This document shows, in pieces, positions 18,828 to 48,998 of a stretch of DNA of 64,000 nt; position 1 is the first letter of the stretch; every line of letters starts with the position of its first letter. Under the pieces are notes generated by a model. That model did not search any database, was not told the DNA's origin, and saw nothing but the letters and a program-made list of their open reading frames with translations. Origin of the DNA: Lysobacter oculi (GTDB lineage Bacteria > Pseudomonadota > Gammaproteobacteria > Xanthomonadales > Xanthomonadaceae); assembly GCF_003293695.1 (NCBI RefSeq), contig NZ_CP029556.1:816001-880000 (forward strand), given 5' to 3'. Made by a program: the position numbers and the translations under genes.

Positions 18828-19182
18828 GGGGGTGCACTGGCTTCGACGGGGGTTGCGAAACTGTTTGGCGCATGCCGAGGGGGTAGCTTTCCTCGCTAAT
18901 CCAGCTGCAAACTCATAGTTGCCAACGACGACAACTACGCTCTCGCCGCTTAAGGCGTAAGCCCTGAACCCACTTGTGCCTGTGCTCGTGGATGTAGGGT
19001 CACTCATCACAGGATCGGCCGCGGCGGCGACCCGCCAACCTCGGCTCAACCTTAGCGGGTATGTGTTGCGGCGTGCCTCGCACGCTGTGTTGCCGTAACA
19101 CGAGAACGAACAGCGAGCTAAGCATGTAGTGCCGGGCACGGAGTACCTTCGGACGGGGGTTCAATTCCCCCCACCTCCACCA
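18828..19182 (+). ncRNA. ssrA: Transfer-messenger RNA (tmRNA)
   Basis: A 355-nt tmRNA. The acceptor stem pairs GGGGGTG (18828-18834) with CACCTCC (19172-19178), followed by the discriminator base and encoded CCA ending at 19182. The T-arm is GGGGG-TTCAATT-CCCCC. The 5' portion carries the conserved GGCTTCGACGGGG segment. The tag reading frame at 18921-18953 encodes ANDDNYALAA then TAA, the hydrophobic -LAA end recognised by ClpXP/ClpAP. It rescues stalled ribosomes with SmpB, whose gene lies 58 nt downstream on the opposite strand. Uninterrupted one-piece form. Confidence 0.97.
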
Positions 19183-32064: not shown

Positions 32065-35306
<3,242 letters not shown>

Positions 35307-35310
<4 letters not shown>

Positions 35311-35786
35311 ACCAGCCGCCGATGACCGCGCGGGGCGCCGCCCGACTGCGCGAGGAACTTGAAGAACTGAAATCCGTGAAGCGCCCGGCGGTGATCCAGG
35401 CGATCGCCGAAGCGCGTGCGCATGGCGATCTCAAGGAAAACGCCGAATACCACGCCGCGCGCGAGCAGCAGGGCTTCATCGAAGGCCGCATCAAGCAGCT
35501 CGAAGGCGAGCTCTCACACGCGCAGATCATCGATGTCACCAAGCTCGGCGCCGGCGACAAGATCGTGTTCGGCGCGACCGTGGACCTGGCCGACATCGAG
35601 ACCGGCAACGAGGTGACCTACCAGATCGTGGGTGACCTGGAAGCCGACATCAAGCTCAAGCTGATCGCCATTTCCTCGCCCATCGCGCGTGCGCTGATCG
35701 GCAAGCACGAGGGCGACGAAGTCACGCTGGAAGCGCCCGGCGGCACCCACGAGTTCGAGATCGTCGCCGTCCGCTACGAAGGCTGA
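35307..35786 (+). CDS. greA: Transcription elongation factor GreA
   Basis: A 159-residue GreA that rescues backtracked RNA polymerase by stimulating transcript cleavage. The N-terminal coiled coil carries the tip acidic pair in [17 protein letters not shown], and the C-terminal FKBP-like domain ([37 protein letters not shown]) binds polymerase. ATG at 35307 overlaps the carB stop; a second ATG at 35322 gives a start closer to most homologues. The carB-greA linkage is shared with the rpf locus of Xanthomonas. Confidence 0.96.
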
Positions 35787-36719
35787 GTGGCGGCTTCGCG
35801 CATCCAGCTGTTGCTGCCGGCGCCACAGCGCTGGCCTCAGCCGCTGCCGGACAGCATCGCCAAGGCGCTGGGCCGGGCGGATCGTGTCGATGTGGCTTCG
35901 GCCGGTGTGCCCGACGTGCCGGCATCCGCGGCCCTGTCACGGCTCGGCGAAGACGACCTGACGCCCGACGACATCCGCGCACATCGCTGGCTGCGCGCCG
36001 ATCCGGCATGGATCCGCGCCGACATCAACGGCGCACGGCTGTACGCGGTGGGCGCGATGCTGCCGCTCGATGCCGACGACATCGACGCCTTCGCGCCGCT
36101 GGTTCAATCGTTGTGCGACGAAGCCGGCTTCACGCTCGACATCGCGCATCCGCAGCGCTGGTACCTGCGCCTTCCTCGCGATGATACGGCGCTGCCCACG
36201 TTCTCCACCCCCATCGAGGCCTTGGGCGAAGACGTCTTCGACCACCGCCCCGAAGGCGATGCCGCGCGGCCCTGGCGCGTGCTCGACAACGAAGTGCAGG
36301 TCGCGCTGCATCAGCATCCGCGCAACGAGGCGCGGCAACGCCTGGGTCGCCCGCCGGTCAACGCGCTGTGGTGGTGGGGCGGGGCGGCATTGCCCGATGC
36401 GCCCGCCGCCGCGCCGCCGACGATCCATTCCGATGATCCCCTGCTGCGAGGTCTGGCACGGCTGGCCAAGATGACGCCTGCCGGTGTGCCGGATGCGTGG
36501 CCCGATGACGCGCAAGGGCTGTTCGACCTGCGCGGGATGCGCGCCGAAGACCTTGCGGACAAGTGGCTGTTGCCGGCACTCGAATGGATGTCGAAGGGGA
36601 ACCGCACGATGCACTGGATGGTGGAAGACGGCCCGACGTGGCGACTGGCCCGCATGCAGCGCTGGCGTTTCTGGCGCGCCGCGCGCGATGCCGATGGCCA
36701 GCCGATGCACGCGCCATGA
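35787..36719 (+). CDS. rpfE: RpfE-like protein (annotated elsewhere as phosphoglycerate-mutase-like)
   Basis: A 310-residue soluble protein with no signal peptide. Its GTG start follows the greA stop immediately and its TGA overlaps the recJ ATG (36716-36719). The opening IQLLLPAPQRWP, the DPAWIRADINGARL and RWYLRLP segments, and the PPVNALWWWGG motif near residue 190 resemble the xanthomonad RpfE protein, whose gene sits between greA and recJ in the rpf locus. Molecular function is unknown; the phosphoglycerate-mutase label given to relatives reflects a distant alkaline-phosphatase-like match that I cannot confirm from residues here. Confidence 0.7.
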   Translation: MAASRIQLLLPAPQRWPQPLPDSIAKALGRADRVDVASAGVPDVPASAALSRLGEDDLTPDDIRAHRWLRADPAWIRADINGARLYAVGAMLPLDADDIDAFAPLVQSLCDEAGFTLDIAHPQRWYLRLPRDDTALPTFSTPIEALGEDVFDHRPEGDAARPWRVLDNEVQVALHQHPRNEARQRLGRPPVNALWWWGGAALPDAPAAAPPTIHSDDPLLRGLARLAKMTPAGVPDAWPDDAQGLFDLRGMRAEDLADKWLLPALEWMSKGNRTMHWMVEDGPTWRLARMQRWRFWRAARDADGQPMHAP

Positions 36720-38416
36720 CCGCGCGCCGCGTCGTGCGCCGCGAGGTCGATGAGGCCCTGATCTCGCAAGGCGACTGGCCCTCGCATTGGCCGCCCGCGT
36801 TGCGTCGCGTGCATGCCGCGCGCGGCAGCACCGGCCTGGGTGATGCGATGCCCGGGCTCGGCAGCCTGCCGCCGCCCGATGGCCTGCTCGGACTGCCGCA
36901 GGCCGTGGCCCTGCTGCGCGATGCCATCGCCCGCGACGCGCACATCGTGGTCACCGCCGATTTCGACTGCGATGGCGCGACCGCCTGCGCCGTCGCCGTG
37001 CGTGGCCTGCGCATGCTCGGCGCGACGCGCGTGTCCTACGCCGTGCCAGACCGCATGCGTCATGGCTACGGCCTGACGCCCGGGCTGGTCGCCGATATCG
37101 CCGCCCTGCAGCCTGATCTGCTGCTCACCGTCGATCACGGCATCGCCTGCCACGCCGGCATCCAGGCGGCGAAGGCGCGCGGCTGGCAGGTCATCGTCAC
37201 CGACCACCACCTGCCGGGCGAAACGCTGCCGATGGCCGATGCCATCGTCAATCCGCAGCAGCCGGGCGATGGTTTTCCTTCGCGTGCATTGGCGGGCGTC
37301 GGCGTGCTGTTCTACCTGCTGCTGGCGATGCGGGCAGCGGCGCGAAACGCTCAGGAATCCGCCGGCAACGCGGACCTCGCATCCCTGTTGGACCTTGTCG
37401 CGGTCGGCACCGTCGCCGACATGGTGAAGCTGGATGTCGCCAACCGCGCGTTGATCGGCGCCGGCCTGCGCCAGCTGCGCAAAGGGCAGGGCTGCGCCGG
37501 CCTGCGCGCGCTGATCGACGTCGCCGGCCGTGATCCCGCGCGCCTGACCACGGCCGACATCGGCTACGCCATCGCGCCGCGCATCAATGCCGCCGGGCGG
37601 CTGGAAGACATGGCGCTCGGCATCGAGTGCCTGCTCGGCGATGACATCGACACCTGCCGCATGCAGGCCGAGGCGCTCGACGCGATCAACCGCGAGCGCC
37701 GGCAGATGCAGCAGTCGATGGTCGATCAGGCCGTCGCCTGCCCGGAAGTGGCCGGTGACACGCTGATTCCCTGCGTGTCGGATGAAAGCTGGCACCCCGG
37801 CGTGGTCGGGCTGGTCGCCTCGCGGCTCAAGGAGCGCCTGCAGCGGCCGGTGTTCGCCTTCGCGCCGGCCGGCGAGGACGAATGGCGCGGGTCGGCGCGT
37901 TCCATTCCCGGCTTCCATCTTCGCGATGCCATCGCTTTGGTCGATGCGCGTCATCCCGGTCTGGTCACCCGTTTCGGCGGCCATGCGATGGCGGCGGGGC
38001 TCACCTTGCCGCGTGCGGCCTTGCCGGCATTCACCGAGGCCATCGCCGATGTGGCCGAAGCGCACAAGCCGGCCCTGCTCAGCACCGAAGACCTGGTGAG
38101 CGATGGCGAACTGGATGCCGCTTCGCTCGACTTCGCCCATGCCTGCGCCCTGCGTGACGGCGGGGCGTGGGGGCAGGGCTATCCGGAACCGCTGTTCGAC
38201 GGCGTGTTCGGCGTCCTCGACTGGCGCATCGTCGGCGAGCGCCACCTCAAGCTCACGCTGGAACGTGACGGCCGCCGCTTCAACGCCATGCATTTCGATG
38301 GCTGGACCGGAGAGTCACCGGCGGGTGCCGTGCACATCGCCTACCGGTTGACGCCGGATGACTGGCGCGGCGGCGATGCCATCCAGTTGATCGTGGTGCA
38401 GCGCGAAGCCGCCTGA
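36716..38416 (+). CDS. recJ: Single-stranded-DNA-specific exonuclease RecJ
   Basis: A 566-residue 5'-3' single-strand exonuclease acting in recombination and repair. The DHH phosphoesterase core shows TADFDCDGATA, TVDHGIACHAG and the DHH triplet D163-H164-H165 (VTDHHLPGE). The DHHA1 domain has RFGGHAMAAGLTL, and a C-terminal OB fold binds DNA. The open frame extends 51 codons upstream, but the ATG at 36716 overlaps the rpfE stop and gives the usual N-terminus. Confidence 0.96.
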   Translation: MTARRVVRREVDEALISQGDWPSHWPPALRRVHAARGSTGLGDAMPGLGSLPPPDGLLGLPQAVALLRDAIARDAHIVVTADFDCDGATACAVAVRGLRMLGATRVSYAVPDRMRHGYGLTPGLVADIAALQPDLLLTVDHGIACHAGIQAAKARGWQVIVTDHHLPGETLPMADAIVNPQQPGDGFPSRALAGVGVLFYLLLAMRAAARNAQESAGNADLASLLDLVAVGTVADMVKLDVANRALIGAGLRQLRKGQGCAGLRALIDVAGRDPARLTTADIGYAIAPRINAAGRLEDMALGIECLLGDDIDTCRMQAEALDAINRERRQMQQSMVDQAVACPEVAGDTLIPCVSDESWHPGVVGLVASRLKERLQRPVFAFAPAGEDEWRGSARSIPGFHLRDAIALVDARHPGLVTRFGGHAMAAGLTLPRAALPAFTEAIADVAEAHKPALLSTEDLVSDGELDAASLDFAHACALRDGGAWGQGYPEPLFDGVFGVLDWRIVGERHLKLTLERDGRRFNAMHFDGWTGESPAGAVHIAYRLTPDDWRGGDAIQLIVVQREAA

Positions 38417-38776: not shown

Positions 38777-39905
38777 ATGATCGAGCTCAATCCCGTCCGA
38801 GCACGCATCGCCGACCTCATCGGTCGCCTCGATGCGCTCCGGGGGTTTCTTTGACTACGACGCCAAGAAAGAGCGTCTAGAGGAAGTCGAACGGGAGCTG
38901 GAAAGCCCCGATGTCTGGAACGACGCCGATCGTGCGCAGGCCCTGGGCCGCGAGCGGGCGCAGCTGGACAAGAACGTCAACGGCATCCGCGCCCTGACCG
39001 AAGGCCTGACCGGCGGCAACGAGCTGCTGGAACTGGCCGAGATGGAAGACGACGAGGACACCGCGCTGGCCGTGGTGGCGGACGTCGACCGCTTCGAGAA
39101 GGATGTGGAGAAGCTGGAATTCCAGCGCATGTTCTCCGGCAAGATGGATGCCACCAACGCCTTCGTCGATATCCAGGCTGGCGCCGGCGGCACCGAGGCG
39201 CAGGACTGGGCCGAAATGCTGCTGCGCATGTACCTGCGCTGGGCCGAAGGCCGCGGCTGGAAGGTCGAGCTGATGGAAGCCTCGGGCGGCGATGTCGCCG
39301 GCATCAAGTCGGCCACGTTCCGCGTCGAGGGCGACTACGCCTACGGCTGGCTCAAGACCGAGACCGGCGTGCATCGCCTGGTGCGCAAGTCGCCGTTCGA
39401 TTCCGACAACCGCCGCCACACCAGCTTCACCAGCGTGTTCGTGTCGCCGGAAGTCGATGACAACATCGACATCGAAATCAATCCCGCCGACCTGCGCGTG
39501 GATGTCTACCGCTCGTCGGGCGCGGGCGGCCAGCACGTCAACAAGACCGAATCCGCGGTGCGCCTGACCCACTTGCCGACCAATATCGTCGTGGCCTGCC
39601 AGAACGGCCGCAGCCAGCACCAGAACCGCGATACCGCGATGAAGATGCTGGCCGCCAAGCTCTACGAGTTCGAACTGCAGAAGCGCAACGCCGAACGCGA
39701 TGCGGTCGAGGCGACCAAGGCCGACATCGGCTGGGGCAGCCAGATCCGCAACTACGTGCTCGACCAGTCGCGGATCAAGGACCTGCGCACCGGCGTCGAG
39801 CGCAGCGACACGCAGAAGGTCCTGGACGGCGACCTCGACGAATTCGTCGAAGCCAGCCTGAAGTCCGGGCTCGACGCCGGCGCCAAGCGCGCCGACATGG
39901 CCTGA
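38777..39905 (+). CDS. prfB: Peptide chain release factor 2 (programmed +1 frameshift)
   Basis: The ATG at 38777 opens 25 codons that end in an in-frame TGA at 38852-38854. A +1 shift, skipping T38852, continues the frame from GAC at 38853 to 39905, for a 375-residue protein. The site CGGGGGTTTCTTTGAC has the SD-like GGGGG followed by CTT-TGA-C, the known autoregulatory shift: low RF2 stalls at UGA and allows the frameshift. RF2 features are the SPF anticodon tripeptide (205-207) and the catalytic GGQ (250-252, in GAGGQHVNK). lysS follows 10 nt downstream. Confidence 0.97.
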
Positions 39906-39915
39906 TGGAAGCCCG

Positions 39916-41430
39916 ATGAACGAACCGAACAACACCGCGCCGGACGAGAACAGCCTGATCGCGGAACGTCGCGGCAAGCTGGCTGCATTGCGCGGGCAGG
40001 GCATCGCCTTCCCGAATGATTTCCGCCGCGCCGACCACGCCGGCGACCTGCAGGCCGATTACGCGGATGCCGAAAAATGGACCGGCGAAGCACTGGAGGC
40101 CGAGGGCCGCCGCGTGTCCGTGGCCGGCCGCATGCTCGCCAAGCGGGTGATGGGCAAGGCCGCGTTCGCGCAGATCCAGGATGTCACCGGCCGCGTGCAG
40201 CTGTTCCTGCAGTCGACCGCGCTCGGCGAGACCTACGACGCGTTCAAGGGCTGGGACGTGGGCGACATCATCGCCGCCGAAGGCACGCTGATGCGCACAA
40301 AGACCGGTGAGCTGTCGGTCAAGGTCGAGACGCTGCGCCTGCTGACCAAGTCGCTGCGCCCGCTGCCCGACAAGTTCCACGGCCTGGCCGACATCGAGCA
40401 GCGTTACCGCCAGCGCTATGTCGACCTGATCGTCACCCCGGAAGCGCGCGAAGTGTTCGTGGCGCGTTCGCGGATCATCGCGTCGATGCGCCGCTGGCTG
40501 GACGATCGCCGCTTCCTGGAAGTGGAGACGCCGATGATGCATTACATCGCCGGCGGTGCCACCGCGAAGCCGTTCACCACCCATCACAACGCACTCGATC
40601 TCGACCTGTTCCTGCGCGTCGCGCCGGAGCTCTACCTGAAGCGCCTGGTCGTCGGCGGCTTCGAGCGGGTGTACGAGATCAACCGCAATTTCCGCAACGA
40701 AGGCGTGTCCACCCGACACAATCCCGAATTCACCATGCTCGAGTTGTACGAGGCCTATGTCTCCTACACCGAGGTGATGGACCTGACCGAAGCGCTGATC
40801 CGCCACGCAGCGCAGGACGCGATGGGTACGACGGCGATGCAATGGGAAGGCCGCGAGATCGACCTCGGCAAGCCGTTCCGCCGCTGGAAGCTGGAAGAAG
40901 CGGTGCGCGAACTCAATCCGGAAATCTCCGTCGCCGACTGCCGCGACCGCGACGCGCTGGCCGCGCATTGCGCACGGCTCAAGGTGGCGGTGAAGCCGGG
41001 CTATGGCTGGGGCAAGCTGCTGCTGGAAATCTTCGAGAAGACGGTCGAAGGCGGACTCATCCAGCCGACCTTCATCACCCATTACCCGGTGGAAGTCTCG
41101 CCGCTGGCCCGCGAGTCCGACGACGAACCCGGCATCACCGACCGCTTCGAGCTGTTCATCGGCGGCAAGGAAATCGCCAACGGTTTCTCCGAGCTCAACG
41201 ATCCGGAAGACCAGGCCGCGCGCTTCATGGCGCAGGTCGAGGCCAAGGATGCCGGCGACGACGAAGCCATGCATTTCGATGCCGACTACATCCGCGCGCT
41301 GGAAGTGGGCCTGCCGCCGACCGGTGGCCTGGGCATCGGCATCGACCGGCTGGTGATGCTGATGACCGACCGCGCCTCGATCCGCGACGTGCTGCTGTTC
41401 CCGTACATGCGTCCACGCACCGACGATTGA
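39916..41430 (+). CDS. lysS: Lysyl-tRNA synthetase (class II)
   Basis: A 504-residue class II enzyme charging tRNA-Lys. The N-terminal OB-fold anticodon domain (about 60-150: [20 protein letters not shown]) is followed by the catalytic core with motif 1 region ([20 protein letters not shown]), motif 2 ([20 protein letters not shown]) and motif 3 ([15 protein letters not shown]). Transcribed with prfB; an intrinsic terminator follows. In Xanthomonas this gene is followed by the DSF genes rpfG-rpfH-rpfC-rpfF, which are not present here. Confidence 0.98.
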
Positions 41431-41471
41431 CCGGTCCGGCGCAAGCCCACCGAAGCCGCATCGCGCAAAAG

Positions 41472-41497
41472 AAAAACCCGCCGGAAGGCGGGTTTTT
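41472..41497. terminator. Bidirectional terminator between lysS and the acyl-CoA ligase gene
   Basis: Perfect arms AAAAACCCGCC (41472-41482) and GGCGGGTTTTT (41487-41497) around a GGAA tetraloop. It serves the convergent genes on both sides and is nearly all that lies in the 93-bp gap. Confidence 0.92.
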
Positions 41498-41523
41498 CGT
41501 GGCCGGAGCGAAGTGGGGCGGAC

Positions 41524-43203
41524 TCAGCCCTTGTGTTCGTCGCGCAGCTCGCGGCGGAGGATCTTGCCGACGTTGGTCTTCGGCAACTCGTCGCGGAATT
41601 CGACGATGTGCGGGCGCTTGTAGCCGGTCAGCTGCTCGCGGGCGAAGGCCTTGACCTGGTCGGCGGTGAGCGCCGGATCCTTGCGCACGACCACCACCTT
41701 CACGGTCTCGCCGGAATTGTCGTCCGGCACGCCGACCGCGGCGACTTCCGCGATGCCCGGCATCGCCGCCAGCACATCCTCGATCTCGTTCGGGTACACG
41801 TTGAAGCCCGACACCAGGATCATGTCCTTCTTGCGGTCAACGATGTAGACGTAGCCGGTCGGCTCGATGCGCGCCATGTCGCCGGTGTGCAGCCAGCCGT
41901 CGTCGTCCATCACCTTGGCGGTCTCGTCCGGACGCTGCCAGTAGCCCTTCATCACCTGCGGGCCCTTGACGCAGAGCTCGCCGATCGCCTCGCCATCCAT
42001 CGGCAGGATGTTGCCGTCATCGTCCTTGATGCAGACATCGGTGGACGGAATCGGCAGGCCGATGGAACCGTTGTATTCCTTGATGTCGAGTGGGTTGATG
42101 CAGACCGCCGGCGAGGTTTCGGTCAGGCCGTAGGCTTCGGCCAGCGTGCAGCCGGTGGCCTGCTTCCAGCGTTCCGCCACCGAGCGCTGCACGGCCATGC
42201 CGCCACCGAGCGTGAGGTGCAGTTTCGAGAAATCGATCTCATCGAAGCCCGGCGTGTTGAGCAGGCCGTTGAACAGCGTGTTGACGCCGGTCAGCGCGGT
42301 GAACTCGATGCCCTTCAGTTCCTTGATGAAGCCCGGCATGTCGCGCGGGTTGGTGATCAGCACGTTGCGCGCGCCGAGCTCCATGAAGACCAGGCCGTTC
42401 GCCGTCAACGCGAAGATGTGGTACAGCGGCAGCGCCGTGATGATGGTTTCCTGGCCGTCCTTCGCATTGCCCGACACCCATGCGCCGGCCTGCAGCATGT
42501 TGGCGATGAGGTTGCGGTGGGTCAGCATCGCGCCCTTGGCCACGCCGGTGGTGCCACCGGTGTACTGCAGGAAGGCGATGTCCTCGTTGTTGACCGTGAC
42601 CGCCGGCAGGGTGGTGCGTGCGCCGCGCGCCAGCGCCTCGGCATAGCGGATCGCACCGGGGATGGAATACGCCGGCACCATCTTCTTGACGTGCTTGACC
42701 ACGAAGTTGACCAGCTTGCCCTTCAGACCGAGCAGGTCGCCCAGGCCGGTGGTGACCACGTGCTTCACGCGGGTGTTGTGCAGCACCTCGGCCAGCACCG
42801 AGCCGAAGTTGTCGATGACGACGATGGCGACCGCGCCGGCATCCTTCAACTGGTGCTCCAGCTCGCGCGCGGTGTAGAGCGGGTTGACGTTGACGACGGT
42901 GAGGCCGGCACGCAGCACGCCGAACGTGGCGATGGGCTGCTGCATGCAGTTGGGCATCATGACCGCGACGCGGTCACCCTTGGACAGCCCCAGGTCGTTG
43001 AGCAGGAAGGAAGCGAAATCGCGGCTCAGGCGGTCGAACTCGCCGTAGGTGATCTCCTTGCCCATGTGGTGGAAGGCGATGCGGTCGCGATGCTTGTCGA
43101 TGGCCCCCTGCAGGACGTCATTGATCGATGCGTACGAGTCCGGATCGATGGTGGCGGGTACGCCTTGCGGATAGTTGGCCAGCCACGGACGCGCGTCGTT
43201 CAT
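41524..43203 (-). CDS. rpfB: Long-chain acyl-CoA ligase (FadD/RpfB-like)
   Basis: A 559-residue AMP-forming fatty acyl-CoA ligase. The P-loop-like motif YTGGTTGVAKGAML is near residue 207-220, LAEAYGLTETSP near 345, and the hinge GWLHTGDMARIEPTGYVYIV with KDMILVSGFNVYPNEIE near 425-460. The C-terminal catalytic lysine is in PKTNVGKILRRELR. In Xanthomonas the RpfB ligase at this place turns over DSF-type fatty acids; here it may simply be FadD of fatty-acid uptake. ATG at 43203 (GGGGAAAGGA just upstream) gives the RpfB-like N-terminus; another ATG lies at 43230. Confidence 0.88.
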   Translation of the reverse strand: MNDARPWLANYPQGVPATIDPDSYASINDVLQGAIDKHRDRIAFHHMGKEITYGEFDRLSRDFASFLLNDLGLSKGDRVAVMMPNCMQQPIATFGVLRAGLTVVNVNPLYTARELEHQLKDAGAVAIVVIDNFGSVLAEVLHNTRVKHVVTTGLGDLLGLKGKLVNFVVKHVKKMVPAYSIPGAIRYAEALARGARTTLPAVTVNNEDIAFLQYTGGTTGVAKGAMLTHRNLIANMLQAGAWVSGNAKDGQETIITALPLYHIFALTANGLVFMELGARNVLITNPRDMPGFIKELKGIEFTALTGVNTLFNGLLNTPGFDEIDFSKLHLTLGGGMAVQRSVAERWKQATGCTLAEAYGLTETSPAVCINPLDIKEYNGSIGLPIPSTDVCIKDDDGNILPMDGEAIGELCVKGPQVMKGYWQRPDETAKVMDDDGWLHTGDMARIEPTGYVYIVDRKKDMILVSGFNVYPNEIEDVLAAMPGIAEVAAVGVPDDNSGETVKVVVVRKDPALTADQVKAFAREQLTGYKRPHIVEFRDELPKTNVGKILRRELRDEHKG

Positions 43204-43232
43204 TCCTTTCCCCTGTTGCGAAGTGGCCATGG

Positions 43233-43271
43233 CCACGCATGATCGAATCGTTTCGATTTCACCATGCGTGG
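43233..43271. promoter_or_regulatory. Nested palindromes upstream of the acyl-CoA ligase: candidate operator
   Basis: CCACGCATG (43233-43241) and CATGCGTGG (43263-43271) form a perfect 9-bp inverted repeat with 21 nt between. Inside lies a 16-bp palindrome ATCGAA-TCGT-TTCGAT (43242-43257). The block is about 30-68 nt upstream of the ligase start. TetR-type fatty-acid regulators bind palindromes of this size; the regulator is unknown. Confidence 0.45.
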
Positions 43272-43330
43272 GCGGATGCGGCAACCCGCGCACTTGACGC
43301 AGCGCAACAAAAGAGGCTTAAAGGCACATG

Positions 43331-43387: not shown

Positions 43388-46147
<2,760 letters not shown>

Positions 46148-46391: not shown

Positions 46392-48998
46392 ATGCTCGCC
46401 AGCTATCGCCAACACGTCGCCGAACGCGCCGCCCTCGGCATCCCGCCGCTGCCGCTGACCGCGCAGCAGACCGCCGAAGTGATCGAGCTGCTGAAAAACC
46501 CGCCGGCGGGCGAGGGCGAGTTTCTGGTGGATCTGATCACCCACCGCGTGCCGGCCGGCGTGGACGATGCCGCCAAGGTCAAGGCCTCGTATCTGGCCGC
46601 CGTCGCGCACGGCAGCGAAAAGACCGACCTCATTTCGCGCTCCCGCGCCACCGAACTGCTGGGCACGATGCTGGGCGGCTACAACATCCACCCGCTGATC
46701 GAGCTGCTGGATGACGCGGAAGTGGGCGAGACCGCCGCCAACGCGCTCAAGCACACGCTGTTGATGTTCGATGCCTTCCACGACGTGCAGGCCAAGGCCA
46801 ATGCCGGCAACGCCAACGCCAAGTCGGTGATGCAGAGCTGGGCCGATGCCGAATGGTTCACCAGCAAGCCTGAAGTGCCGGAGTCGCTGACCATCACCGT
46901 GTTCAAGGTGCCGGGCGAAACCAATACCGACGACCTCTCGCCCGCACCCGACGCCACCACGCGCCCGGACATCCCGCTGCACGGGCTGGCGATGCTGAAG
47001 AACAAGCGCGACAACGCGCCGTTCGTGCCGGAGGAAGACGGCAAGCGTGGCCCGATCCAGATGCTGGCCGACCTGAAGGACAAGGGCCACCTGGTCGCCT
47101 ACGTCGGCGATGTGGTCGGTACCGGTTCTTCGCGCAAGTCCGCGACCAACTCGGTGCTGTGGTGGACCGGCGAGGACATTCCGTTCATCCCGAACAAGCG
47201 CTTCGGTGGCGTGTGCCTCGGTTCGAAGATCGCGCCGATCTTCTACAACACGATGGAAGACGCCGGCGCGCTGCCGCTGGAAATCGACGTCGCCGACATG
47301 AACATGGGCGATGTGGTGGAGCTGAAGATCGACCACGCTTCGGGCAAGGTCACCGCGTTCAAGGACGGCAAGCAGATCGCCGAATCCGTGCTGAAGTCCG
47401 ACGTGCTGCTGGACGAAGTGCGCGCCGGTGGCCGCATCCCGCTGATCGTCGGTCGCGGCCTGACCGCGAAGGCGCGCGAGGCGCTGGGCCTGCCGGCTTC
47501 GACCCTGTTCCGCCTGCCGGTGGACCCGGCCGATACCGGCAAGGGCTACACGCTGGCGCAGAAGATGGTCGGCCGCGCCTGCGGCCTGCCGGAAGGCCAG
47601 GGCATCCGTCCCGGCACCTACTGCGAGCCGAAGATGACCTCGGTGGGTTCGCAGGACACCACCGGCCCGATGACCCGCGACGAACTGAAGGATCTCGCCT
47701 GCCTCGGCTTCTCGGCGGACCTGGTGATGCAGTCGTTCTGCCACACCGCCGCCTATCCGAAGCCGGTGGACGTCAAGACCCACCACACGCTGCCGGACTT
47801 CATCTCGACCCGTGGCGGCATCGCGCTACGTCCGGGCGACGGCATCATCCACAGCTGGCTCAACCGCATGCTGCTGCCGGACACGGTCGGCACCGGCGGC
47901 GACTCGCACACGCGCTTCCCGGTGGGCATTTCGTTCCCGGCCGGTTCCGGCCTGGTCGCCTTCGCCGCGGCCACCGGCGTGATGCCGCTGGACATGCCGG
48001 AATCCGTGCTGGTGCGCTTCAAGGGTGAACTGCAGCCGGGCGTGACCCTGCGTGACCTCGTCCACGCGATCCCGCTGTACGCGATCAAGCAGGGCCTGCT
48101 GACCGTGGAGAAGCAGGGCAAGAAGAACATCTTCTCCGGCCGCATCCTCGAAATCGAAGGGCTGCCGACGCTGAAGATCGAGCAGGCCTTCGAGCTGGCC
48201 GATGCCTCCGCCGAGCGTTCGGCGGCGGGTTGCACGGTCAAGCTGGACAAGGAACCGATCGTCGAATACCTGCGCAGCAACATCACCCTGCTGAAGTGGA
48301 TGATCGCCGAGGGCTATGCCGATCCGCGTTCGATCCAGCGCCGCATCGACAAGATGGAAGCGTGGCTGGCCGATCCGCAGCTGCTGTCCGCCGATGCCGA
48401 CGCCGACTACGCCGCCGTTATCGAAATCGACTTGAACGACATCGTCGAGCCGATCGTCTGCTGCCCGAACGATCCGGACGATGCCAAGACGCTGAGCGAT
48501 GTCGCCGGCGCCAACATCGACGAAGTGTTCATCGGCTCGTGCATGACCAACATCGGTCACTTCCGTGCCGCCGCCAAGCTGCTGGAAGGCAAGCGTGACA
48601 TCCCGACCCGCCTGTGGGTCGCGCCGCCGACCAAGATGGACGCCGCCGAACTCACCAAGGAAGGCCACTACGGCACGTTCGGTGCCGCCGGTGCGCGCAT
48701 GGAGATGCCGGGCTGCTCGCTGTGCATGGGCAACCAGGCGCAGGTGCGCGAAGGCGCGACGGTCATGTCCACTTCGACCCGCAACTTCCCGAACCGTCTC
48801 GGCAAGAACTCCAATGTGTACCTGGGGTCGGCGGAACTGGCCGCGATCTGTTCGCGCCTGGGCCGCATCCCGACCCGCGAGGAGTACCTGGCTGACATCG
48901 GCGTGGTCAACGAGAACGGCGAGCAGATCTATCGCTACATGAACTTCGACCAGATCCCCGAGTACCGGGAAGTGGCCGATGGCGTGAAGGCGGCCTGA
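46392..48998 (+). CDS. acnB: Bifunctional aconitate hydratase B / 2-methylisocitrate dehydratase
   Basis: An 868-residue AcnB of the TCA cycle. The N-terminal HEAT-like domain (about 1-160) and mobile domain 4 precede the catalytic domains, the AcnB order. The Fe-S cysteines are in [13 protein letters not shown] and [14 protein letters not shown]; the third is in [27 protein letters not shown] is the conserved active-site loop. AcnB apo-protein can bind mRNA in E. coli; whether here is unknown. AGGAA precedes the ATG and a terminator follows. Confidence 0.98.

Follow-up and report, generated by a model that had tools for sequence, protein, structure and literature searches.

Probable loss of the rpfG-rpfC-rpfF signalling module from the lysS-rpfB junction of Lysobacter oculi, and recurrent absence of the module in Xanthomonadaceae

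Gene content of the lysS-rpfB junction

The stretch of DNA analysed (the window, 64,000 nucleotides) spans bases 816001-880000 of the complete single-contig genome of L. oculi (2,592,821 bp; genome code G000, genus code g1) and contains the framework of the xanthomonad rpf locus: carB-greA-(rpfE)-recJ-prfB-lysS on the plus strand, followed by rpfB and acnA on the minus strand (Table 1). NCBIfam profiles named carB, greA, recJ, prfB, lysS, the long-chain acyl-CoA ligase and acnA; rpfE and acnB are named by position and by homologues in relatives. Gene order and orientation on both sides had been proposed from the sequence alone (hereafter the original prediction), and both were borne out by these profiles and by the homologous loci of relatives. 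The lysS-prfB-recJ side is presumably also part of the Xanthomonas rpf locus.

Table 1. Features of the L. oculi window (window coordinates) and of the intact module in Solilutibacter tolerans (coordinates of locus L039)
Feature	Position	Strand	Basis or remark
carB	32065..35310	+	NF003671 above cut-off
greA (ORF as listed; profile from residue 14)	35268..35786	+	NF001264 above cut-off
rpfE-position gene	35787..36719	+	position; weak phosphoglycerate-mutase-like profile match
recJ exonuclease	36563..38416	+	TIGR00644 above cut-off
prfB, peptide chain release factor 2	38832..39905	+	TIGR00020 above cut-off
lysS, lysine--tRNA ligase, left border of missing module	39916..41430	+	NF001756 and TIGR00499 above cut-off
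93-bp junction	41431..41523		against 4558, 4631 and 4576 bp from lysS to rpfB in three intact congeners
predicted hairpin terminator	41471..41498		25 bp behind rpfB stop; folding of the 93-bp interval
rpfB-like long-chain acyl-CoA ligase (FadD family), right border	41524..43293	-	NF006442 978 bits (cut-off 1023), NF005463 866 bits (cut-off 869)
acnA (rpfA position), aconitate hydratase	43388..46147	-	TIGR01341 above cut-off
acnB	46392..48998	+	position and congener homologues, 87-93% identical
rpfG, S. tolerans L039	15130-16182	+	within the 4558-bp lysS-rpfB interval
rpfC, S. tolerans L039	16143-18302	+	within the 4558-bp lysS-rpfB interval
rpfF, S. tolerans L039	18334-19272	-	within the 4558-bp lysS-rpfB interval

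The last base of the lysS stop codon (TGA) is 41430, and the rpfB-like gene on the minus strand has its stop codon from 41524; the intervening 93 bp hold, as originally predicted, little beyond one terminator-like element, a single strong hairpin with a perfect 12-bp stem (z = -3.1 against 200 shuffles, one of which folded equally well). Given the A/T-rich outer part of its stem, this hairpin could act as a strong terminator usable from either direction. On by-eye reading of the junction sequences, a hairpin lies ~20-25 bp behind rpfB, between rpfB and rpfF, in the three congeners with an intact module (S. tolerans, G200 and G130), near the same place behind rpfB in the window (25 bp), G166 and G206, and none was seen there in G149, G046, G204 and G106. 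By its position, the putative window terminator is the counterpart of the one that intact relatives have behind rpfB.

The rpfB-like ligase scores slightly below the cut-offs of its two best NCBIfam models, and it is the sole match to itself in the genome at E<=1e-150. Its true start may be 43203, since the profile matches begin at residue 31. Elsewhere in the window lies a tmRNA gene (18828-19182, plus strand; Rfam RF00023, 194 bits).

Among published loci, the closest is the rpf cluster of Xanthomonas campestris, described as having rpfGHC convergent with rpfF and rpfB behind rpfF (PMC4504480); an earlier comparison delimits the cluster as AcnB to RpfD (PMC2585010). The X. campestris cluster and the window have in common the framework genes, their orientation on both sides, the rpfB-like ligase, acnA and acnB, but in the window rpfG, rpfC and rpfF (and rpfH) are absent and rpfB remains. 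A different arrangement is described for Xylella fastidiosa, in which a variant of the xanthomonad locus has rpfB elsewhere (PMC4504480), whereas the window keeps rpfB and the signalling genes are gone.

The signalling module in congeners and in the L. oculi genome

Three of the 17 genomes of the genus carry the arrangement lysS>rpfG>rpfC><rpfF<rpfB: S. tolerans UM1, formerly Lysobacter tolerans (NZ_FTLW01000004.1; G079, locus L039), and, with the same arrangement in 4631 and 4576 bp respectively, G200 (locus L040) and G130. The S. tolerans rpfF product matches NF006452 at 344 bits (cut-off 177) and NF053515, the DSF synthase RpfF model, at 321 bits, under that model's cut-off of 550; among proteins of solved structure, this product is by sequence most like 7zq7 (a crotonase family protein) and 3m6m (RpfF). 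Within this locus, rpfC and rpfF (L039:16143-19272) look foreign, nearest those of G028, and rpfG looks native, being 93% identical to that of G200. The missing block had been expected to comprise rpfG, rpfH, rpfC and rpfF; rpfG, rpfC and rpfF hold good, but in the intact congeners, all three of them, rpfC follows rpfG with no further gene seen between, and to judge from these loci rpfH need not have been present in the lost block.

In congeners without the block, the lysS-rpfB interval measures 0 bp (G046), 10 bp (G204, G106), 32 bp (G149), 49 bp (G202), 65 bp (G166), 176 bp (G201), 348 bp (G206) or 562 bp (G182), and in G199 lysS and rpfB are separated by 3716 bp of other genes; lysS and rpfB lie on separate contigs in G198 and G205, and neither gene was seen in G203. 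The genes in the G199 slot (L112:9776-13493) resemble, as read from their translations, those for membrane, roadblock-type, PAS and PhnD-like proteins. In five of these congeners (G202, G046, G201, G204 and G106; loci L118-L122), the lysS adjoining the missing module, with rpfB 0-176 bp away, is only 75-76% identical to that of the window, nests with genera g4/g36 (SH-aLRT 99) and is thus foreign.

The original prediction of a missing DSF block was confirmed across the complete 2.59-Mb genome. RpfF was not found, the best match to S. tolerans RpfF being 48.9 bits over 113 residues (the three carriers in the genus give 281-702 bits, 702 being the query itself), and NF006452 had no match at E<=1e-40, a profile result that agrees with the RpfF search for the eight congeners in the family sample described below. 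RpfG, the receiver-HD-GYP regulator, had no match in the genome at E<=1e-30 and, among the 17 genomes, was present in the same three carriers only. Full-length RpfC, a hybrid sensor kinase with an N-terminal membrane domain and HPt, was likewise absent from the genome, with a match to the kinase core only (query 193-581); it occurs in the same three carriers, and elsewhere in the genus only the cores of other hybrid kinases match at 1e-60. A move of rpfG, rpfC or rpfF to another site in the genome, the possibility for which a genome-wide search had been proposed, is excluded for practical purposes because these searches, run on a complete single contig, find no match that would qualify as one of the three genes. 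We also rejected a remnant of the block within the window: none of RpfF, RpfC or RpfG gave a tblastn match at 1e-3 in the 64 kb, and blastn against the blocks of the three congeners yielded only matches of 14-22 bases (E 0.06 or worse).

Probable loss, ancestral absence and possible routes of loss

We consider the 93-bp interval to be, with a probability of about 0.87, what remains after loss of rpfG-rpfC-rpfF between lysS and the terminator behind rpfB. The three-gene DSF module would have been lost as one piece with the framework genes, rpfB included, retained, and the hairpin would now lie between two converging genes. The original prediction had left two readings side by side, excision of the block or a state preceding its insertion, and had held that the latter would gain support if most relatives and also their outgroups lacked the block. 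The synteny of relatives and outgroups decides for loss, because in close relatives as well as in outgroup families an intact block stands at this very position. The order lysS>rpfG>rpfC><rpfF<rpfB was found in all 22 RpfF-positive family loci chosen (L141-L162, 21 genera). In an order-wide sample, NF006452 matched 85 of 299 genomes, 16 of these 85 outside the family, and 10 of the 17 loci from those 16 genomes (three families) have lysS>rpfG>rpfC><rpfF, seven of them also with rpfB close behind; of the other seven loci, a contig end truncates one, three lie at a different site and three belong to a divergent type. Relatives are indeed mostly without the block, RpfF being absent from 14 of 17 congeners, and seven of the eight sampled outer branches of the family are block-less; but a module that was never here and was later gained by the carriers between lysS and rpfB would have to have reached the same site in the same order in the three congeners, the 22 family loci and, from lysS through rpfF, the 10 non-family loci, and the window genome is nested beside carriers in both the rpoB and the locus trees, so that we regard ancestral absence as highly improbable.

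In the seven-protein locus tree the window genome is sister to the carriers S. tolerans and G200 (97/95). This tree rejects all 13 block-less congeners as one clade (AU p 1.7e-79). Three groupings of the window genome that were chosen once the tree was known are rejected too, namely those with G206 (0.009), the G182 group (5e-5) and G166/G149 (5e-6). In the rpoB tree (21 genomes; G200, G201, G202 and G206 had no match and the partial G203 was excluded) the window genome stands beside the carrier G130 (SH-aLRT 86), and the position of S. tolerans next to the pair is unresolved. The carB-greA-recJ tree gives the placement of the window genome with S. tolerans support of 80/74 only and puts G149, of which 10% is included, in the wrong place.

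Counting losses only, the genus requires five, or four if a single loss covers both G166/G149 and the G046 group, a possibility suggested by rpoB. Under equal weights for gain and loss, a single loss at the base of the genus followed by regain of the module in the G130 line and in the S. tolerans/G200 line takes the fewest steps (three, against four to five separate losses; the locus tree counts four changes over 25 genomes including G167, which is outside the genus). Such a history would also accommodate the foreign rpfC-rpfF allele of S. tolerans, whose RpfF is 74% identical to that of G028 and 48% to that of the congener G200, and a whole module has moved into another family (see below). 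We nevertheless find it unlikely: RpfG of the three carriers forms one clade (100/99) that is deeply divided along the lines of the species tree, even if the division (76.6%) goes as deep as one between genera. On these sequences the single RpfG clade favours repeated loss, without proving it.

As to how the L. oculi line lost the module, the genes flanking the junction give differing signals. The window genome groups with S. tolerans and G200 in the prfB tree (100/98) and in the acnA tree (94/98), whereas the lysS tree rejects that grouping (AU p 0.0017) and the rpfB tree places the window genome with the block-less G166/G149 and the G046 group (93/95), with AU values of 0.052 for the S. tolerans grouping and 0.19 for G166/G149 alone. 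Window prfB is 95.5% identical to that of S. tolerans, as against 87% to G166/G149, but window lysS is nearest to G166 (90.8%) and G149 (90.4%), as against 89.9% to S. tolerans. At sites where S. tolerans and G200 agree with each other and differ from an equally concordant G166 and G149, the ratio of S. tolerans-like to G166/G149-like states is 36:6 in window prfB, 7:2 in lysS residues 1-75 and 4:16 from there to the end of lysS (Fisher p 8e-7 when prfB is compared with this last part, and 0.01 within lysS); over the entire lysS it is 11:18 for the window genome and 22:8 for the carrier G130. From about residue 75, judged by these states, window lysS thus resembles block-less congeners more than S. 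tolerans.

A possible explanation, to which we give somewhat less than even odds, is that homologous recombination exchanged the intact lysS-rpfB stretch for one from a block-less congener; a deletion allele would then be spreading instead of arising anew. This would account for the departure of lysS from S. tolerans and G200, for the switch of states and for the grouping of rpfB, and in the five other congeners with a foreign lysS that gene too ends 0-176 bp from rpfB. The grouping of lysS with G166/G149 reaches only 54/3 in a careful tree, however, and the switch in rpfB is not significant (24:18, then 3:8 in the last part; p 0.10); near the end of rpfB the carrier G130 and the block-less G182 give similar counts, so part of the signal may reflect states that are old and held in common. 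Mosaicism is, moreover, not confined to the junction, since acnA residues 675-750 form one G166/G149-like patch (1:9), and the 93-bp spacer is unlike those of G166 and G149. On present evidence a local deletion is as likely as import from a block-less congener. If import is right, the loss count on the species tree exceeds the number of original deletions. Recombination of this same segment is described for the rpf-1/rpf-2 exchange of Stenotrophomonas maltophilia (PMC4517397) and for the divergent RpfF/RpfC of X. axonopodis pv. citri (PMC2585010), both being allele swaps rather than losses.

Distribution and proposed mobility of the module

In a family sample of 198 genomes, RpfF (NF006452 at E<=1e-40) was present in 146 and RpfG (E<=1e-90) in 147; 144 genomes have both, 49 neither, and five are discordant, with RpfF only (G112, G193) or RpfG only (G104, G107, G143). 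Among the 168 genomes that are >=95% complete and <=5% contaminated, 135 have both, 31 neither, and only G112 and G107 are discordant. G107 has rpfG plus a partial rpfC that the end of the contig truncates; in G112 a divergent RpfF lies close to where its contig ends, and the 12 kb fetched hold neither RpfG nor RpfC; the remaining discordant assemblies are fragmented (320 contigs in G104, 320 in G143 and 760 in G193). With discordant genomes left out, five genera show both states (g1, g4, g26, g30, g51), seven only absence and 32 only presence. RpfF and RpfG are therefore kept or lost jointly, and absence of the whole module recurs across the family. In a quick tree of 56 genomes of our choosing the state changes at least 12 times, not always by loss, and of the eight genomes that branch outside the main clade seven lack the block, which makes the state at the family root less sure.

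Across the family, genomes that lack both RpfF and RpfG are smaller (median 2.8 versus 3.6 Mb; Mann-Whitney p 1.3e-5, 31 versus 135 genomes, with rounded sizes and kinship ignored). Genome reduction as the cause was rejected, given that mean size differences inside the five mixed genera are inconsistent (+0.25, +0.18, -0.10, -0.03 and -0.15 Mb) and the gap is mostly a between-genus effect.

The pattern sets rpfB apart from the signalling genes, since it is retained almost everywhere: of the 31 high-quality genomes that lack both RpfF and RpfG, 30 have an rpfB match at 1e-200, the exception being G081. A further 18 genomes had been picked as RpfF-negative, and in the 17 that remain without G107, rpfB lies <600 bp from lysS in eight and 4.8 kb away in one, and was unseen in the fetched stretch in eight. 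RpfB probably stays because it serves general fatty-acid activation; its described role as an acyl-CoA ligase that mobilises free fatty acids (PMC4504480) fits this retention.

RpfF makes DSF, RpfC senses DSF and represses RpfF, and phosphorylated RpfG degrades c-di-GMP (PMC4504480), and the strain would accordingly be unable to make DSF by RpfF or to answer it through RpfC/RpfG control of c-di-GMP. The same review describes clustered rpfF, rpfG and rpfC as conserved throughout xanthomonads, and an earlier comparison called the rpf cluster ancestral (PMC2585010). Ancestry of the cluster fits our data but universal conservation does not, and published statements about all xanthomonads need amending because RpfF and RpfG are both missing from 31 of the 168 high-quality genomes of the family. 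We found no account of recurrent loss of the whole module in the literature covered, which left out subscription journals and preprints. The loss involves no new biochemistry and is of moderate evolutionary interest; the close relatives amount to natural, replicated knock-outs in which to study the roles of DSF beyond plant disease and the persistence of half-circuits.

In published surveys, rpfF was detected in 232 of 323 clinical Stenotrophomonas genomes (PMC13402532), and rpfC in 111 of 111 isolates but rpfF in 84 of 111 (PMC9097388). Lysobacter capsici 55, a published Lysobacter without rpfC and rpfF (PMC4657364), is like L. oculi in that DSF genes are absent; the passage on it names only rpfC and rpfF as absent, with most components present in the genus, and it may be a half-circuit. 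The two surveys speak against all-or-none loss, and they and L. capsici 55 speak against selection against half-circuits, except if rpfF alleles of divergent sequence escaped detection; that some did is suggested by another survey, which reports the rpf cluster in all 213 strains (PMC11138164).

The module also occurs away from its usual borders. Three genomes of family f12 (G276, G423 and G428; loci L191, L195 and L198) have rpfG-rpfC-rpfF without lysS or rpfB in the 19.5 kb fetched, and the two included in trees (G276 and G428) nest among g38/g51 in the RpfG tree and among g51 in those of RpfC and RpfF. G276 shares with G051 (g51) a 4.4-kb stretch of 80% identity. In G051 it starts ~50 bp beyond lysS and stops ~100 bp short of rpfB, so the shared boundaries fall in the lysS- and rpfB-side spacers; this stretch is the very module absent from the window. 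We tentatively suggest, as an idea that falls a little short of an even chance, that rpfG-rpfC-rpfF is a portable, all-or-none module that changes state repeatedly within one family and moves whole between families, that its deletion allele spreads between species by recombination in lysS and rpfB, and that half-circuits, with RpfG but no RpfF or with RpfF but no RpfG, do not last at the species level. If true, this would imply strong selection against half a quorum-sensing circuit, contrary to stable signal cheaters, and half-circuits would be selected against.

No Pfam match to a mobile-element family was found in eight proteins, six of them near the transferred module of genus g93 and two in L202; the same eight gave uvrD-like, hemD/hemX-like or aconitase matches or nothing. 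Genes of uvrD-like and hem-like type lie near the f12 modules (L191, L195, L198). Three other loci of family f12 (L199, L200 and L201) carry a divergent RpfC/RpfF pair, 30-40% identical, which in L199 lies between lysS-rpfG and rpfB with the order of rpfF and rpfC turned.
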